Shown here in pieces: positions 8,152 to 33,250 of a DNA stretch of 33,508 bases. Under the pieces are notes generated by a model. It was not told where the DNA came from. It saw nothing but the letters and a program-made list of their open reading frames with translations, and made no database searches. The position numbers were made by a program, and so were the translations under genes. Location: the NCBI GenBank assembly GCA_015490805.1, contig WFXC01000026.1:1-33508 (forward strand). Reading direction: 5' to 3'. The stretch is from Candidatus Kapaibacterium sp. Lineage in GTDB: Bacteria > Bacteroidota > Ignavibacteria > Kapaibacteriales > WFXC01. How positions within the stretch are numbered: position 1 is the first letter of the stretch; every line of letters starts with the position of its first letter.

Positions 8152-8224
8152 GACCCCGTAGCTCAGCAGGTAGAGCAACGGCCTTTTAAGCCGTGGGTCG
8201 CAGGTTCGATCCCTGCCGGGGTCA
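8152..8224 (+). tRNA. tRNA-Lys (anticodon UUU)
   Basis: It forms a full cloverleaf of 73 bases. The acceptor stem is GACCCCG (8152-8158) with CGGGGTC (8217-8223) and discriminator A 8224. The D stem is GCTC/GAGC, the anticodon stem ACGGC/GCCGT with loop CTTTTAA, so the anticodon is TTT at 8185-8187. The variable loop is GGGTC, and the T arm GCAGG-TTCGATC-CCTGC. CCA is not encoded and must be added by CCA transferase. It starts 5 bases after the dxs stop and is followed by five T's (8226-8230). It is probably cut from a dxs read-through transcript, since no separate promoter can fit. Confidence 0.97.
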
Positions 8225-8252
8225 CTTTTTGCCAATTAAGCCGGATAGCGGT

Positions 8253-9647
8253 ATGGCAAGTGATCTGCAAGTGCTCCAGCAGTTGGAAGCCTATATCCGT
8301 TCCCATCGTGGGAAAATTACCATCGGTGACTTTGCTGCGGCCACTGGATTTCCCATAGAACAAGTCCAGAATGCCTTTTATACCCTCCTGGAACGCTATG
8401 AATGCAAAGTAGTGATGGATCCGGAAAGCGGGAATGTCGTTTTTGCTTTCCAGTATCCCCTCCGCCCCCGGAATGCGAAAAGTTTCCGCGAAATCGCTCT
8501 GTCAGTAGCCACAACGGCGTGGAAAATCTTCGTCAAAGTATACAAAGCAGCTATTGGCGTTATTCTCATTGTTTACACCGTGATCTTTGTGCTGCTCCTC
8601 CTCTTTGCCGCTGCTTCCGGCAGTAGCAGCGACTCTCGCAACCGCCGCTCCTCAGCGTCTATTGATCTTGGGGCTATATTTCGACTTCTATGGATTCTTG
8701 CTGAATGGAAGTCAGCCGAACGGAAGATACAGTGGCAAACCGATCCTTCTGGTTTCCGGTATCCAGTCTACCAAACGCCGTTAACAGATAAGGCTCACTC
8801 TAAGAAGAAGAAAAAGCGCTTTTTGCAAGCCGTTTACGATTTTGTTTTTGGTCCTGAGTATCCGAAGTATTCACCGCTGGAAGATGCGAAAGAAGCTGCG
8901 GCCTTCATCTACTTTAACGATGGATTGCTCACCAGTGGACATATCGTTGGATTAACCGGCAAATCGTATGCAGTAGCAGAATCTCGCTTAACTGAATATT
9001 TCGCTCGTTTTCAAGGCGATGCAGAAATTTCAGAAGAAGGCATCGTCATTGGACAGTTTCCGAAGCTGACTAAAGAAGCGATCAAAACTCCACCATCCAA
9101 GGAACTCATCATCCCTTACCCTGATGAGGCTGATCCACCAGTTGTTCACAATGGCAATACGACCGGGCAAAACATTGCGATCATCGCAATGAACGCTTTC
9201 AACCTGGGAATGTCGTGGGCAGTGATTAACTATTTCAGCCTTGCGGGAGCAAGCATAGGCACTGCTCAGTTGTTAGAGGTTGCTTTAGGTTATTTCCCCT
9301 TCATCGTGTCAGTCCTATACTTCATTATTCCCATTCTGCGGATTCCATACGTACTGCACCGCAAACAAAAGCGCGAGCAAGAAATCGTACGCAAAAAACT
9401 GTTCCGATCTATCCTCTGGCTTCGCGGCGCTGCGGCAACCGAGGACGATATTCTGCGCCGTGCGAATATCACCGACTCGGAAATGGCAATTGCTAAGTCA
9501 ATCTTAGCAAAGCTGGTCCGTGAATTACAGGGCGAATTGAGCCTTACCGATGATGGTAAACCGCAGTACGAGTTCTCCCGCCTGCACCGAGAAATCATCG
9601 TTGGTTCGTGGTTCCGCCGCTATCTGGGCATTCCAGCGGATCGCTAA
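8253..9647 (+). CDS. Membrane protein with N-terminal winged-helix-like domain, function unknown
   Basis: The protein has 464 residues. Residues 1-60 (LEAYIRSHRGKITIGDFAAATGFPIEQVQNAFYTLLERYECKVVM) look like a helix-turn-helix/winged-helix fold followed by a short beta segment. One or two membrane helices follow at about 95-130 (AAIGVILIVYTVIFVLLLLFAA), then a Ser/Arg-rich stretch and a soluble middle domain (FLQAVYDFVFGPEYPKY...). A second membrane cluster lies at about 305-370, with a charged C-terminal segment including another HTH-like stretch (ATEDDILRRANITDSEMAIAKSILAKLV). From memory, the order resembles a cyanobacterial/plastid membrane-protein family (Arabidopsis At5g03900-like); this needs a search. 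There is no signal peptide. The frame is open back to 8193, inside the tRNA, so I chose the ATG at 8253, which has only a weak ribosome site. It is co-directional with dxs and tRNA-Lys. Confidence 0.8.
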   Translation: MASDLQVLQQLEAYIRSHRGKITIGDFAAATGFPIEQVQNAFYTLLERYECKVVMDPESGNVVFAFQYPLRPRNAKSFREIALSVATTAWKIFVKVYKAAIGVILIVYTVIFVLLLLFAAASGSSSDSRNRRSSASIDLGAIFRLLWILAEWKSAERKIQWQTDPSGFRYPVYQTPLTDKAHSKKKKKRFLQAVYDFVFGPEYPKYSPLEDAKEAAAFIYFNDGLLTSGHIVGLTGKSYAVAESRLTEYFARFQGDAEISEEGIVIGQFPKLTKEAIKTPPSKELIIPYPDEADPPVVHNGNTTGQNIAIIAMNAFNLGMSWAVINYFSLAGASIGTAQLLEVALGYFPFIVSVLYFIIPILRIPYVLHRKQKREQEIVRKKLFRSILWLRGAAATEDDILRRANITDSEMAIAKSILAKLVRELQGELSLTDDGKPQYEFSRLHREIIVGSWFRRYLGIPADR

Positions 9648-10057
9648 CTTATGAAGTTGGGACAGAATTCAAAGCCATAGCGCAGGACCCCGAGCTGTCA
9701 GCAGGTTCAATGCGCATATCTTCCTCGTTCCTTCTTGAAGAGAAACAGGACCTAAGGATAGCACAATAACATCCTCACCAGAAGCGCACCCCCTTAGCGT
9801 GCATGAATATATCGGTACTTTCCCCAAAGTACTTCCGCTCTATGCCAGCGAAAGTGGCACATCAAAACTGCCGAAAGCTCACGCTTCAAGGATGCATTCT
9901 TCTTTGGCTAACGTGTCAGCACTTCCAGTGATTGCCGGCTCAAGCCGGCGCTCCCAGTGGAGCACACGCTCCAGTGTGCATCCCTTGCCGGCTCAAGCTG
10001 GTGCTCCCCAGTCGGCACTCCCGGTCAGTGCTCCTGTGACCGGAAAGCTGAGCTTGT
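9648..10057. other. 410-base gene-free region between convergent genes
   Basis: It lies between the 3' end of the membrane-protein gene (plus strand) and the 3' end of the 1151-residue cargo gene (minus strand). I see nothing notable in 9648-9781. From 9782 to 10057 it is occupied by a cluster of short hairpin repeats, described separately. A frame on the plus strand over 9799-10068 is a by-product of the repeats. Confidence 0.7.
9782..10057. repeat. Cluster of short hairpin repeat units (array 1)
   Basis: At least eight small inverted repeats follow one another. Examples: GTACTTT/AAAGTAC at 9815-9832; GCCA/TGGC at 9844-9858 around a GAAA loop; GCCGGC-TCAA-GCCGGC at 9934-9949; GCACAC/GTGTGC at 9962-9979; GCCGGC-TCAA-GCTGGT at 9987-10002; GCACT/AGTGC at 10015-10031; CCGGTCA/TGACCGG at 10021-10043. 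Several share the frame AGC-n-CACGCT-y-CA, four variable bases, GCATyc (9876-9898, 9959-9982). The unit TTGCCGGCTCAAGCyGGyGCTCCC occurs twice, 53 bases apart (9932, 9985). Stem sequences differ while pairing is mostly kept. The same family appears at 33025-33250. It resembles REP/MITE-like intergenic repeats; function unknown. Confidence 0.7.
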
Positions 10058-13000
10058 TTACCGGATAAACGTAAAGGTGGTTGTTGCAACTGGTTCCCCA
10101 TTGAACAGAAAGCGCAACAAGTATACATCGCTGCTTCCTGTAGGTTGCAGCGGGAACTGAAACTCACCTCTGCTGACCTGTTGCTCCAGCACTGTCTGCT
10201 GCAACCGCCCATCCAGCGTGTACAGTTCTACCGTAAGCTTGCCGGGTTGCTGTACCATTAGATGAACAGTTGCTTTCTCTACCACTGGGTTCGGAACGAT
10301 CTTCTGAATATGAATTGGCAGAGCAGGAGTTTTGCTTGACCGTTCAGGTGTTGAGTTAGGAATCTGGAAGCCAACAATTTTGTAAATAGAGCCAGCAAAG
10401 TCAGAAAGCCAGAAAGTGCCATCCCGCTGGTCATAGTCCGCACCACGGGCATTAATAATCCCAGACGGGCCTGTCAGCGCTAGCCGATCCTGTTCTACTT
10501 CATAATTCCCAGCCGGAATCTTGATGAGATAGGCACCTTGCAAACTTCCGCCGGTGAAATCCGTTGACACCTGATAGATATTGCCTTGCGGATCTCGACA
10601 TAGTCCTCGAGGACCAAAGTCACCCGTAAACGGATTGTCAAATGTTTCCAGAACTTTTTGTTCCGAAAGATCGTACAAATAAAGTTTTTCCTGATTTCGA
10701 TCGCCAACTAAGAGGGTATCGTTGGCTAACCAGACCAGGCCAATTGGGTACTGCGTTGCGGGTGATGGATAAGTTGCTTTCAAATTTCCATCCGAATCTA
10801 GAGCGATAATTGTTCCCTGTCCCCCGGAAAGCAGCGCCATCTTATGGACATAGATGGTTCCGTTATCACGGTTGACCGTGATATCGGTAAACAAGCTATC
10901 GCCGACAGGCATTTGGAACGAAGAAATGAGTTCTAAGGTTTCCGCATTGTATTTATACAACCGATTGCCATAGAAACTGGTTGCCCACAGATTACCTTGA
11001 CCATCGTAAGCAATACCATAGGGGACATGAGAAACACCGGAGAGTTTGAGCACTGCTCCCGGATGAATAGGCTGAATACTAAACGGTAAGGTAACGGCAA
11101 CTTGATCTGCATTACTCATCGAGGAGACTCGTATCCTCGCTGCTATCGTCGAAGTAGCAGGAAGCTTCCACAACGTGGAATTACCTGAAACATTATCGAC
11201 AATCAGTTGCCAAGTCTGCCCATCGTCCAAAGAGTATTCCACTTTCACCGGCAAATCAAAACCATACCAAGTTATCAGTTGCGTTGAAAGTGCTGAGAAA
11301 TCTTCGCCGCCGGCTGGTCGGAGAATAGCAAAAGCCTCAACGCCATCTTCAATGGGAACCTCCCACATAGAACGTCCGTGTGTTGCTGCCCGCAGCGCCA
11401 GTGATTCCTTATGGATACGGAGATCAACCACAGGTACTCTGGGCAATCCTACGCCATAAGGAAGCCAGGTATTCCCTCCATCATAGGTTGCAAAAACGCC
11501 AATATCCGTTCCCACAAAGATGTTATTGTCATCTTCTGGATTTACCGCAATCGCATTGCACGGAATATCAGGGAGCATGGAACCAATATTCTCCCAGCTA
11601 TCCCCACCGTCCGTGGTACGGAATACATGGGGAACCCCAAACCCCGAAAAGGAAATAAAAGCTGTAAGAGCATTCTGTTCAGAGCACACTATATCCGTCA
11701 CGTACCGATTAACCAGACCGTTTTCTGCAACACTGGTCCAGGTCTCACCAGCATCAGTACTTCGATACACTTCTCCCCGGCTGGTGCCAATGTAAAGGAT
11801 ATCTGGATTGACTGGCGAAATAGCAATCGCAGAAATCAATCCGTTCAATGAAGGGAAAGTTTCGGAAATAACTTCCCACGGCTGTTCTCCACCGAAGCTA
11901 TTAATGTACAGATTCCCCCGTCCGTGGTACAAAATCAAGGGATCTGCCGGATCAATAGCAATCGGTGCGGACCACAAGGCAGGATCATTGGCATCAATTC
12001 CATCAGTAATGCCTTTAAACTCTCCCGTCTGCAAATTCCGCTTCCACAACTGTCCCCTGAAAAATTCGCCGTAAATAATGTGGGGATTCTCATAATCCAC
12101 AACAACAAAGAACCCGTCACCACCAGCAACGCGCGACCAGCGGTCTTCCTGTTGGTAATTTCCTAAGGTTCCATTATCTTGAGTTCCACCGTAGGTCTTA
12201 TTATCCACTGACTGATCAACATCCATCGCATAAAACTGCGTGATTGTCAGATTGTTATTGATATTCTTCCACGTTTTTCCTGCATCAGTGCTCAAATACA
12301 CTCCCCCATCATTGACAGCATAAACGATATCAGGATTACTAGGAGCAAAAGCAGCATGATGTTGATCGACGTGTACTCGATCACCTCCATAAATGGGACC
12401 ACCACCATATCCATTGGTGATATTTACCCAGCTTTGTCCACCATTGGTTGTTCGCCAAATATCAATGCCTCCTGCTAAAACGGTATCCGGATGCGTCGGG
12501 TGAACAACAATGTATTGATCATACCATCCCTGTCCATTGAAAAAACTTGCAGAGCCTTGGTACACATTCTGCCATGAACCACCCCGATCCGTACTTTTGT
12601 AAATCGTTGCAATCCCTTGCACTTCCATCAGCACATAAAGAATATTAGGATCCGAAGGAGCTTGGTGTACCGATACGCGTCCTATACCAGAAATTGGGAA
12701 ACCAGAATTTCGGGGAAACCAGGTTTTGCCACCGTCACCCGAATAGTACACGCCTTTTCCCGTGACCCCGATGAACCATTCATTCGGGTCCGCAGGATTC
12801 ATAGAAACATCACTAACGATACCATCGAATGTTTTTTCCCATGTCAATCCACCATCGGTCGAACGATACACTCCCGCTCCATTTTTCGTTGCTCCAGCAA
12901 TAACAAGCGAGGGATTTTGGGGATGAATCCAGAGTTTTGAAAAAGCTCCCACGGTTACCAATCCAACCTGCTCCCAGGTTTCACCACCATCAGTCGAACG

Positions 13001-13513
13001 AAACACTCCATCGCCCAGATAGGCATCAATGTTGGAGCTCATTTCGCCTGTGCCAGCCAGTAAAATGTCGGGATTGGTAAAATCTATGGCTAAGGAACCC
13101 ATTGCAATTGCCGTTTCATTGTCGAACACAGGCGTCCAGGTCTCACCATAATCCGTGGTTTTCCAGATGCCTCCGGCTGCCGCTCCTATCCACGCTGTCG
13201 CCGGATCCGTTGGATGAACGACTACTGTGCGAGCTCGACCACCGATATAAAACGGGCCAATAGGATACCATTCAGGCTGGGTTGCTAACACTTGCGCTGA
13301 TGCTCGTTTACTCAACTGTGCTGCCTGTTGGATTGCCTTCACTCGCGCCCGGAAAGGGATACGATCGTAAGGATATGCACGCGCTTCATAGAAAAACCGT
13401 TCTCGCTCCTTTGGCTTCACGTTCGGCAGCGACCGATAATATTGTTCAACGGTTTGCGCAAAGACGCTATACCACGACACAAAGGCAACAAGACACAGAA
13501 CAACACCTTTCAT
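10058..13513 (-). CDS. 1151-residue T9SS cargo: Asp-box propeller plus NHL-like propeller
   Basis: This is a secreted protein. The signal peptide MKGVVLCLVAFVSWYSVFAQ is followed by a large beta-propeller region (about residues 55-740) with about ten Asp-box motifs (TTDYGETW, STDGGETW, STDGGLTW, SGDGGKTW, STDRGGSW, TTNGGQSW, STDAGKTW, STDAGETW, TTDGGDSW, TYDGGNTW), the sortilin/VPS10-like type. A FN3-like module comes next (FAILRPAGGEDFSALSTQLITWYG), then an NHL/SMP-30-like propeller (SHVPYGIAYDGQGNLWATSFYGN). The last ~75 residues are a T9SS sorting domain starting PNPVVEKATVHLMVQQPGKLTVELYTLDGRLQQ and ending TTTFTFIR. I chose the ATG at 13513 because it starts a compact signal peptide; the in-frame ATG at 13543, with AGGA three bases upstream, is an alternative, and the frame runs open to 13627. 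It may bind or process polysaccharide, as some Asp-box proteins do, but no catalytic residues are identifiable. Confidence 0.9.
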   Translation of the reverse strand: MKGVVLCLVAFVSWYSVFAQTVEQYYRSLPNVKPKERERFFYEARAYPYDRIPFRARVKAIQQAAQLSKRASAQVLATQPEWYPIGPFYIGGRARTVVVHPTDPATAWIGAAAGGIWKTTDYGETWTPVFDNETAIAMGSLAIDFTNPDILLAGTGEMSSNIDAYLGDGVFRSTDGGETWEQVGLVTVGAFSKLWIHPQNPSLVIAGATKNGAGVYRSTDGGLTWEKTFDGIVSDVSMNPADPNEWFIGVTGKGVYYSGDGGKTWFPRNSGFPISGIGRVSVHQAPSDPNILYVLMEVQGIATIYKSTDRGGSWQNVYQGSASFFNGQGWYDQYIVVHPTHPDTVLAGGIDIWRTTNGGQSWVNITNGYGGGPIYGGDRVHVDQHHAAFAPSNPDIVYAVNDGGVYLSTDAGKTWKNINNNLTITQFYAMDVDQSVDNKTYGGTQDNGTLGNYQQEDRWSRVAGGDGFFVVVDYENPHIIYGEFFRGQLWKRNLQTGEFKGITDGIDANDPALWSAPIAIDPADPLILYHGRGNLYINSFGGEQPWEVISETFPSLNGLISAIAISPVNPDILYIGTSRGEVYRSTDAGETWTSVAENGLVNRYVTDIVCSEQNALTAFISFSGFGVPHVFRTTDGGDSWENIGSMLPDIPCNAIAVNPEDDNNIFVGTDIGVFATYDGGNTWLPYGVGLPRVPVVDLRIHKESLALRAATHGRSMWEVPIEDGVEAFAILRPAGGEDFSALSTQLITWYGFDLPVKVEYSLDDGQTWQLIVDNVSGNSTLWKLPATSTIAARIRVSSMSNADQVAVTLPFSIQPIHPGAVLKLSGVSHVPYGIAYDGQGNLWATSFYGNRLYKYNAETLELISSFQMPVGDSLFTDITVNRDNGTIYVHKMALLSGGQGTIIALDSDGNLKATYPSPATQYPIGLVWLANDTLLVGDRNQEKLYLYDLSEQKVLETFDNPFTGDFGPRGLCRDPQGNIYQVSTDFTGGSLQGAYLIKIPAGNYEVEQDRLALTGPSGIINARGADYDQRDGTFWLSDFAGSIYKIVGFQIPNSTPERSSKTPALPIHIQKIVPNPVVEKATVHLMVQQPGKLTVELYTLDGRLQQTVLEQQVSRGEFQFPLQPTGSSDVYLLRFLFNGEPVATTTFTFIR

Positions 13514-13679
13514 ACTACTCTCTTTTTTATGATACCAACTCATTTTTCCTGCTTTTAATCTTGTGTATCCACTATTCGTTACAATGCCCCTTTTACTCGG
13601 CATCGCACACCATCGTGTCTCACTCAATGAGGCTCAGTTAACGATATCTACTAACCAAGGCTATCGATTAACCACATAA

Positions 13680-33024: not shown

Positions 33025-33250
33025 TTGCCGGGGAGCGCACGCTTCAGCAAGCATCGTCTCACCCTCACCCTCTCCGCAGGGAGAGGGGATTTTTGCACCG
33101 GTAGGAACGACCTGCTGGATCGCCCATCGGGCGAAGCACCGCTTCACCCCTCCATATCGTGCCGGGAACACACACTTCAGTGGGCATTTACCGGGAACAC
33201 ACCCCCTAGGGTGTACTTTCTCTACCGACGAAAGTCGGCGCTCCTGACCA
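33025..33250. repeat. Cluster of short hairpin repeat units (array 2)
   Basis: Units seen: GGAGCGCACGCTTCAGC...GCATC (33032-33055), a sequence match to 9959-9982 of array 1; CCCTCTCC-GCAG-GGAGAGGG (33068-33087) followed by ATTTTT; TCGCCC/GGGCGA (33120-33134); GAAGC/GCTTC (33133-33145); GGAACACACACTTCAGTGGGCATT (33165-33188, written here in its two parts GGAACACACACTTC and AGTGGGCATT); ACACCC-CCTA-GGGTGT (33199-33214); CCGAC-GAAA-GTCGG (33225-33238). CCGGGAACACAC occurs twice (33163, 33192). Stems vary, while loops (TTCA, CCTA, GAAA) and 3' flanks recur. Confidence 0.65.
33068..33094 (+). terminator. Strong hairpin followed by T-run, within repeat array 2
   Basis: An eight-base-pair GC-rich stem CCCTCTCC (33068-33075) / GGAGAGGG (33080-33087) with loop GCAG is followed by five T's on the plus strand (33090-33094). 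This is the form of an intrinsic terminator reading plus-ward, but both flanking genes read minus-ward and no plus-strand gene ends here. The CCCTCACCCTCTCC...GGAGAGGG pattern is a widespread intergenic repeat in many genomes, so it may be a repeat unit rather than a working terminator. Confidence 0.45.

Follow-up and report, generated by a model that had tools for sequence, protein, structure and literature searches.

A GGGAGC-headed hairpin family of the REP/BIME kind in one genus of Kapabacteria

A hairpin array between two convergent genes

The DNA analysed here (the window) is a 33,508-nucleotide stretch of contig WFXC01000026.1 from Candidatus Kapaibacterium sp. Two of its open reading frames (ORFs), at 8193–9647 on the forward strand and at 10058–13627 on the reverse strand, are convergent, and in the gap between them (9648–10057) small inverted repeats follow one another, with flanks that recur and stems that show compensating changes. 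With a covariance model a decayed array was recognised at 9783–10025, consisting of three clear units and several degenerate ones (Table 1). Two stem types occur, Y (GCCG[AG]C) and Z (GCAC[ACG]C), and the second clear Y unit lies 53 nt from the first. The match at 9783–9805 is weak when taken alone; its strand obeys the rule for arrays described below, with Z on the forward strand. A second array of this family, near the end of the window, has the same polarity. In an Rfam scan of the window only a tRNA was matched, and the array matched no curated covariance model.

Table 1. Units of the hairpin family identified in the window
Feature	Position	Strand	Evidence
Degenerate Z-type unit (AGC GCACCC..GCGTGC AT)	9783–9805	+	3.6 bits, E 0.35 in 601 bases
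Degenerate Y-type unit without head (TGCCAGCGAAAGTGGCA)	~9843–9861	-	by eye only; no model score
Degenerate Z-type unit	9876–9898	+	2.5 bits, weak
Degenerate Y-type unit (TTGGCTAACGTGTCAGCACTTCCAGT)	~9905–9930	-	by eye only; no model score
Y-type unit, near consensus (ACT GGGAGC GCCGGC TTGA GCCGGC AAT)	9931–9958	-	covariance model 32 bits, E 1.1e-6, whole window
Z-type unit, partly decayed (GGAGC ACACGC TCCA GTGTGC ATC)	9959–9982	+	12.8 bits; species alignment
Y-type unit, partly decayed	9984–10011	-	15.4 bits; direct repeat D1; species alignment
Truncated unit, head only (ACCGGGAG)	10018–10025	-	4.1 bits, weak
Second array, GGGAGC family	33028–33248		29.7, 23.8, 12.3 bits; pattern scan
Second array, Z unit	33028–33055	+	
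Second array, Z unit	33161–33188	+	
Second array, probable Z unit	near 33193	+	
Second array, Y unit	33221–33248	-	

A first-pass annotation, which took only the 276 bases at 9782–10057 as the space between the genes, had described at least eight hairpins there, with mutually unlike stems and with recurring loops and 3' flanks. The inverted repeats are real, but they are not all of one family, as neither GTACTTT/AAAGTAC (about 9817–9833) nor CCGGTCA/TGACCGG fits the family unit. The apparent variety of stems comes down to two types read on opposite strands. Loops and flanks do recur, although not as independent features: the TCAA and GAAA loops are Y units read backwards, the TCCA loop is a Z unit read forwards, and the flank GCGCTCCC corresponds to the conserved 5' head GGGAGC read on the other strand.

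Unit structure, copy number and distribution

When matches were read side by side, the unit could be written as ACT-GGGAGC-(6-bp stem)-TTYA-(stem)-A. The 5' ACT, the head and the loop are conserved and the stems vary; each position of the head is 84–99% conserved in Y and Z units, and a conserved C(C/T) directly precedes it.

A search of the genome of origin with the sequence of this gap gave 99 matching places on many contigs. The unit was then expressed as a 22-nt pattern, GGGAGCGCNNNCTTYAGNNNGC, allowing up to two mismatches, with the reversed (backward) pattern as control. This pattern has 611 matches in the 2.67-Mb Kapabacteria genome (G000), about equally on both strands, and the backward control has none; the copies therefore extend well beyond the window, whereas their absence elsewhere would have refuted the idea of the first-pass annotation. 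The congeners G001 and G002 have 553 and 349 matches, respectively. Across 58 further genomes from the order, match counts were comparable to those of the backward control; matches were almost absent elsewhere in a sample of 395 genomes of the phylum, and an exact 25-mer matched only two named Candidatus Kapaibacterium metagenome-assembled genomes. The hairpin family is confined to one Kapabacteria genus, and the window array is a worn copy of this genome-wide REP/BIME-type family, of which there are some 600 copies per genome. No GTAG-headed units were found in G000, G001 or G002, where the tag is GGAG or GGGAG.

Stem pairing and covariation

To keep the pairing analysis from being circular, its units were selected on head and loop, irrespective of the stem. 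Among the 223 units thus obtained, 93.6% of the stem pairs are formed and 76% of the units are fully paired. In 72 distinct units, standard pairs account for 82.2% of the pairs in the named hairpin, compared with 64.5±1.5% after shuffling and 21–38% in slid versions. The covariation score in the same units is 0.472, against 0.210±0.019 for shuffled and 0.06–0.10 for slid versions. Stem pairs 3, 4 and 5 change on both sides, and the head tag falls outside the stem.

The paired changes that the first-pass annotation had taken as a sign of selected structure thus lie far above chance, but they do not imply present selection on each copy. Much of the covariation reflects a few amplified stem types, and a broken pair in many single copies is decay. 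The covariation shows that structure mattered during copying and is no proof of present selection on every unit.

Y and Z units always lie on opposite strands

The array statistics cover about 1.1 Mb of the 2.67-Mb genome. Of the arrays, 71 contain two or more units that could be typed; in each of them the Y units share one strand and the Z units occupy the other. Neighbouring units obey this rule in 294 of 294 cases: the 203 opposite-strand pairs all combine Y with Z, and the 91 same-strand pairs are all of one type. Such a rule would be expected if arrays change by duplication and deletion of blocks, without uptake of randomly oriented units.

The commonest close arrangement is a tail-to-tail pair of Z and Y, with a favoured spacing of 6–9 nt. 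For a consensus Z-Y doublet the predicted fold is a three-way junction (z -6.0), the outer stem of which could be TIR-like. Both observations would suit a MITE, in which the inverted doublet of about 57 nt is the mobile unit, bounded by terminal repeats (ACTGGGAGC/GCTCCCAGT) and moved by a DDE transposase. However, the heads of partners vary independently, being identical in only one of 56 variant pairs; this absence of covariation speaks against pairing of heads within doublets and indicates that the head is a linear tag and not a terminal repeat. Isolated fresh doublets and target duplications were not seen either, there being no empty site at which duplications could be scored, and a single-stranded hairpin with a linear tag is a better fit to elements of the RAYT type. 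A MITE is, in our judgement, a decidedly unlikely explanation.

Strong contig-wide GC skew occurs in G000, for instance in contigs C17 (+0.12) and C12 (-0.12). Array polarity leans towards the sign of the contig skew, with agreement in 38/59 arrays and in 31/42 in the contigs with strong skew. Tested against the marginals this is not significant (Fisher p 0.15), and replication strand is not claimed as the cause of polarity.

Location relative to genes

Genes were called as ORFs of at least 150 residues, setting aside ORFs that overlap two or more units. All 54 arrays that could be placed lie between genes, and none is inside a long ORF. Convergent gaps hold 25 of them where 11–13 are expected (p 1e-5, by number of gaps); 19 are in codirectional and 10 in divergent gaps. 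For the codirectional arrays the median distance is 66 nt to the upstream 3' end and 188 nt to the next start. There is a hint of a preference of Y for the coding strand, found in 15 of 19 codirectional arrays; the figure falls to 12 of 21 when genes are called more loosely.

This distribution bears on the alternative that the arrays are RNA-level elements, transcribed from the flanking genes as mRNA 3'-end protectors or terminators, with selection on RNA structure keeping the stems. The enrichment in convergent gaps, the proximity to upstream 3' ends and the Y preference under the stricter gene calls are in line with it, as is the folding of the window array, which as RNA is better than that of shuffled versions (z -3.1). 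On the other hand, nearly a fifth of the arrays (10/54) are in divergent gaps, the strand preference shrinks to 12 against 9 with looser gene calls, and a terminator scan of the window array found none, a T-run terminator being absent. Moreover, sequence conservation extends to the heads, which are not part of the stem, arrays reach 11 units, which exceeds what a terminator needs, and known REPs show the same bias towards convergent gaps and 3' ends (PMC3733652). An RNA-level element is an unlikely primary explanation; a secondary role of the arrays as 3'-end structures is possible.

Two more repeat families (GTAGGGGCGACC...GGTCGCCCCTAC and CCCTCACCCTTACCCTCTCCCAGAGGGAGAGGGAAT) are interleaved with arrays, for example in array regions L002, L003, L005, L016 and L018; their motifs have 51 and 40 matches in the 1.1 Mb.

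Changes between species

The site of the window array is common to G001 and G002, with about 91–92% identity. G002 lacks 52 nt of the array, which is one repeat block containing the Y unit at 9984–10011, and the Z unit is better preserved in G001 (GGAGC GCACAC TTCA GTGTGC) than in G000. Every comparable array of at least two units has an array or units at the corresponding place in the relative, and array lengths mostly differ between species (590 versus 283, 199 versus 353, and 295 versus 557 nt). One array of G002 (L154) was considered as a new insertion and rejected, because a unit and its flank are duplicated in tandem there. No clean empty site or new insertion was seen in the species comparison, so that the mobility of the family is presumed rather than observed.

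Polarity and species comparison together point to growth of arrays by block duplication. The first-pass annotation had suggested that diverged copies were inserted side by side; the perfect strand-locking and the block-wise changes in length argue for local duplication and deletion instead. The same comparison bears on a possible role in chromosome organisation, with the arrays kept as sites for gyrase, a nucleoid protein or a topoisomerase. REPs elsewhere bind such proteins (PMC2817692) and the array sites are conserved between species, but the number and order of units per site change freely and the relation of polarity to GC skew is not significant. We regard a function of this kind as the reason for the arrays as highly improbable.

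The transposase question

Two RAYT-like genes are present in G000 (C44:112420-113055 and C38:1168-1707), both scoring below the NF047646 cut-off of 80, and the congeners carry related or broken RAYT-like genes. No GGGAGC units lie beside the two genes of G000, which themselves enclose a hairpin of another kind (GTAGGGGCGACCGGCCGGTCGCCCCTAC or a degraded version of it; GTAGGGGCGACC...), so they fit another, GTAG-headed family. A single sub-threshold PF01797 match in this genome, RAYT-like by NF047646, was rejected as the cognate enzyme, as it belongs with another hairpin. Other RAYTs were not found in the genus, nor was any RAYT flanked by GGGAGC units in inverted orientation; IS200 TnpA was not found in the genus, and no RAYT relatives were found in viral contigs.

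The RAYT-like genes at G000:C38:1168-1707, in the region of G002:C109:34090-34118 and at G002:C23:2350-2380 harbour a hairpin (GTAGGGGCGACCGGCCGGTCGCCCCTAC, intact or worn), a REP inserted into the gene presumed to encode its transposase. The RAYT-like gene at G000:C44:112420-113055 overlaps both its neighbours, which resemble the type I restriction genes hsdS and hsdR. Another hairpin, GGAGCGCCGGCTTCAGCCGGC(TT), is present in single copies in five IMG/VR viral contigs, with two in one contig (L122:352-372 and 1410-1430; L123, L124, L125, L126); phages may have acquired them as REPs from some other, unrelated group of hosts.

The check for a RAYT proposed in the first-pass annotation therefore revealed no cognate enzyme in the genus, but it did so for a relative of the hairpin. 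In the class-mate G252 this core hairpin follows a GTAG head in 16 matches, and GTAG-headed hairpins in inverted orientation flank, on both sides, an intact RAYT (NF047646, 91 bits against the cut-off of 80; HUH motif MPDHVHLL). A RAYT flanked by inverted REPs is the defining RAYT-REP arrangement (PMC2817692). This supports a REP ancestry of the GGGAGC family, in which the head would have changed and the enzyme would have been lost or have gone unrecognised. The link to G252 rests on the common core hairpin, for which convergence could instead be responsible.

Relation to known repeats and proposed origin

BIMEs of E. coli combine Y with Z1 or Z2 REPs. The Kapabacteria arrays likewise consist of two REP types in inverted layout, with blocks reiterated in tandem. 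They differ in that head and stem sequences are unrelated, the stem has no bulge, runs of a single type on one strand are common, and type is linked to strand in every neighbour pair (294/294). REPINs (Bertels and Rainey 2011, PMC3116915) also have inverted doublets with outward heads as a frequent building block, whereas the partners here differ in stem and fold as a three-way junction, their heads are without covariation, and arrays dominate over single doublets.

With the GTAG REPs and their RAYTs (Nunvar 2010, PMC2817692; Di Nocera 2013, PMC3733652) the family shares a conserved, unpaired tag followed by a short hairpin, a copy number in the hundreds, an extragenic location near 3' ends and in convergent gaps, dimers, clusters, sub-families with compensated stems, and a CT at the 5' flank. 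The TTYA-type loops resemble those of H. influenzae REPs (GTAGGGTGGGCTTcAGCCCACC). Unlike GTAG REPs, whose tag is GTAG or a variant (GYAG, GTRG or GTGG), it carries the tag GGGAG(C) and has no cognate RAYT in the genus. In being abundant tagged palindromes without a dedicated transposase, the units resemble the CGTC-tagged REPs (PMC3733652), from which they differ in tag, stems and taxa. GGGAG-tagged REPs in Kapabacteria were not reported in the literature searched.

The family is of the REP/BIME kind, and lies outside the GTAG superfamily in the strict sense on account of its tag and because no RAYT flanked by its units was found in the genus. It is unusual in its different tag, in having Y and Z always on opposite strands, and in having no recognisable transposase of its own. 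The REP/MITE-type assignment among the suggestions of the first-pass annotation is borne out by the high copy number, the extragenic location, the unpaired conserved head, the compensated stems and the BIME-like inverted layout, as well as by the relative that flanks a RAYT in G252.

We propose, with considerable confidence, that this is a REP/BIME family of one Kapabacteria genus, probably of RAYT-type origin, whose head would have changed from GTAG to GGGAG and which would now be altered mainly by duplication and deletion in place. A HUH nuclease of the RAYT/TnpA-REP type would likely have mobilised the units as single-stranded hairpins. By analogy with E. coli REPs it would read head and hairpin and may have cut at the conserved CT before the head; CT cleavage beside REPs is known (PMC8266576). 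The head would then have drifted from GTAG to GGGAG within the genus, with the cognate RAYT lost or unrecognised. Present-day arrays would change mainly where they stand, as Y-Z blocks are duplicated or deleted, and this would keep the two types on separate strands. That GGGAG defines a third tagged class of REPs, with about 600 copies per genome, no transposase of its own, arrays changing by duplication and deletion, and an absolute opposite-strand rule, is a more tentative proposal, which we consider somewhat doubtful.

These findings extend REP/BIME elements to the Kapabacteria, where the tag does not follow the GTAG rule that RAYT enzymes are thought to require. They also link this GGGAG tag to the hairpin of a class-mate that has a GTAG head and flanks a RAYT. 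Together the GGGAG and GTAG forms offer a natural series in which to study shifts in REP recognition and the possible survival of REP populations beyond their transposase, and the exceptionless strand-locking of Y and Z offers a quantitative handle on the growth of BIME arrays.
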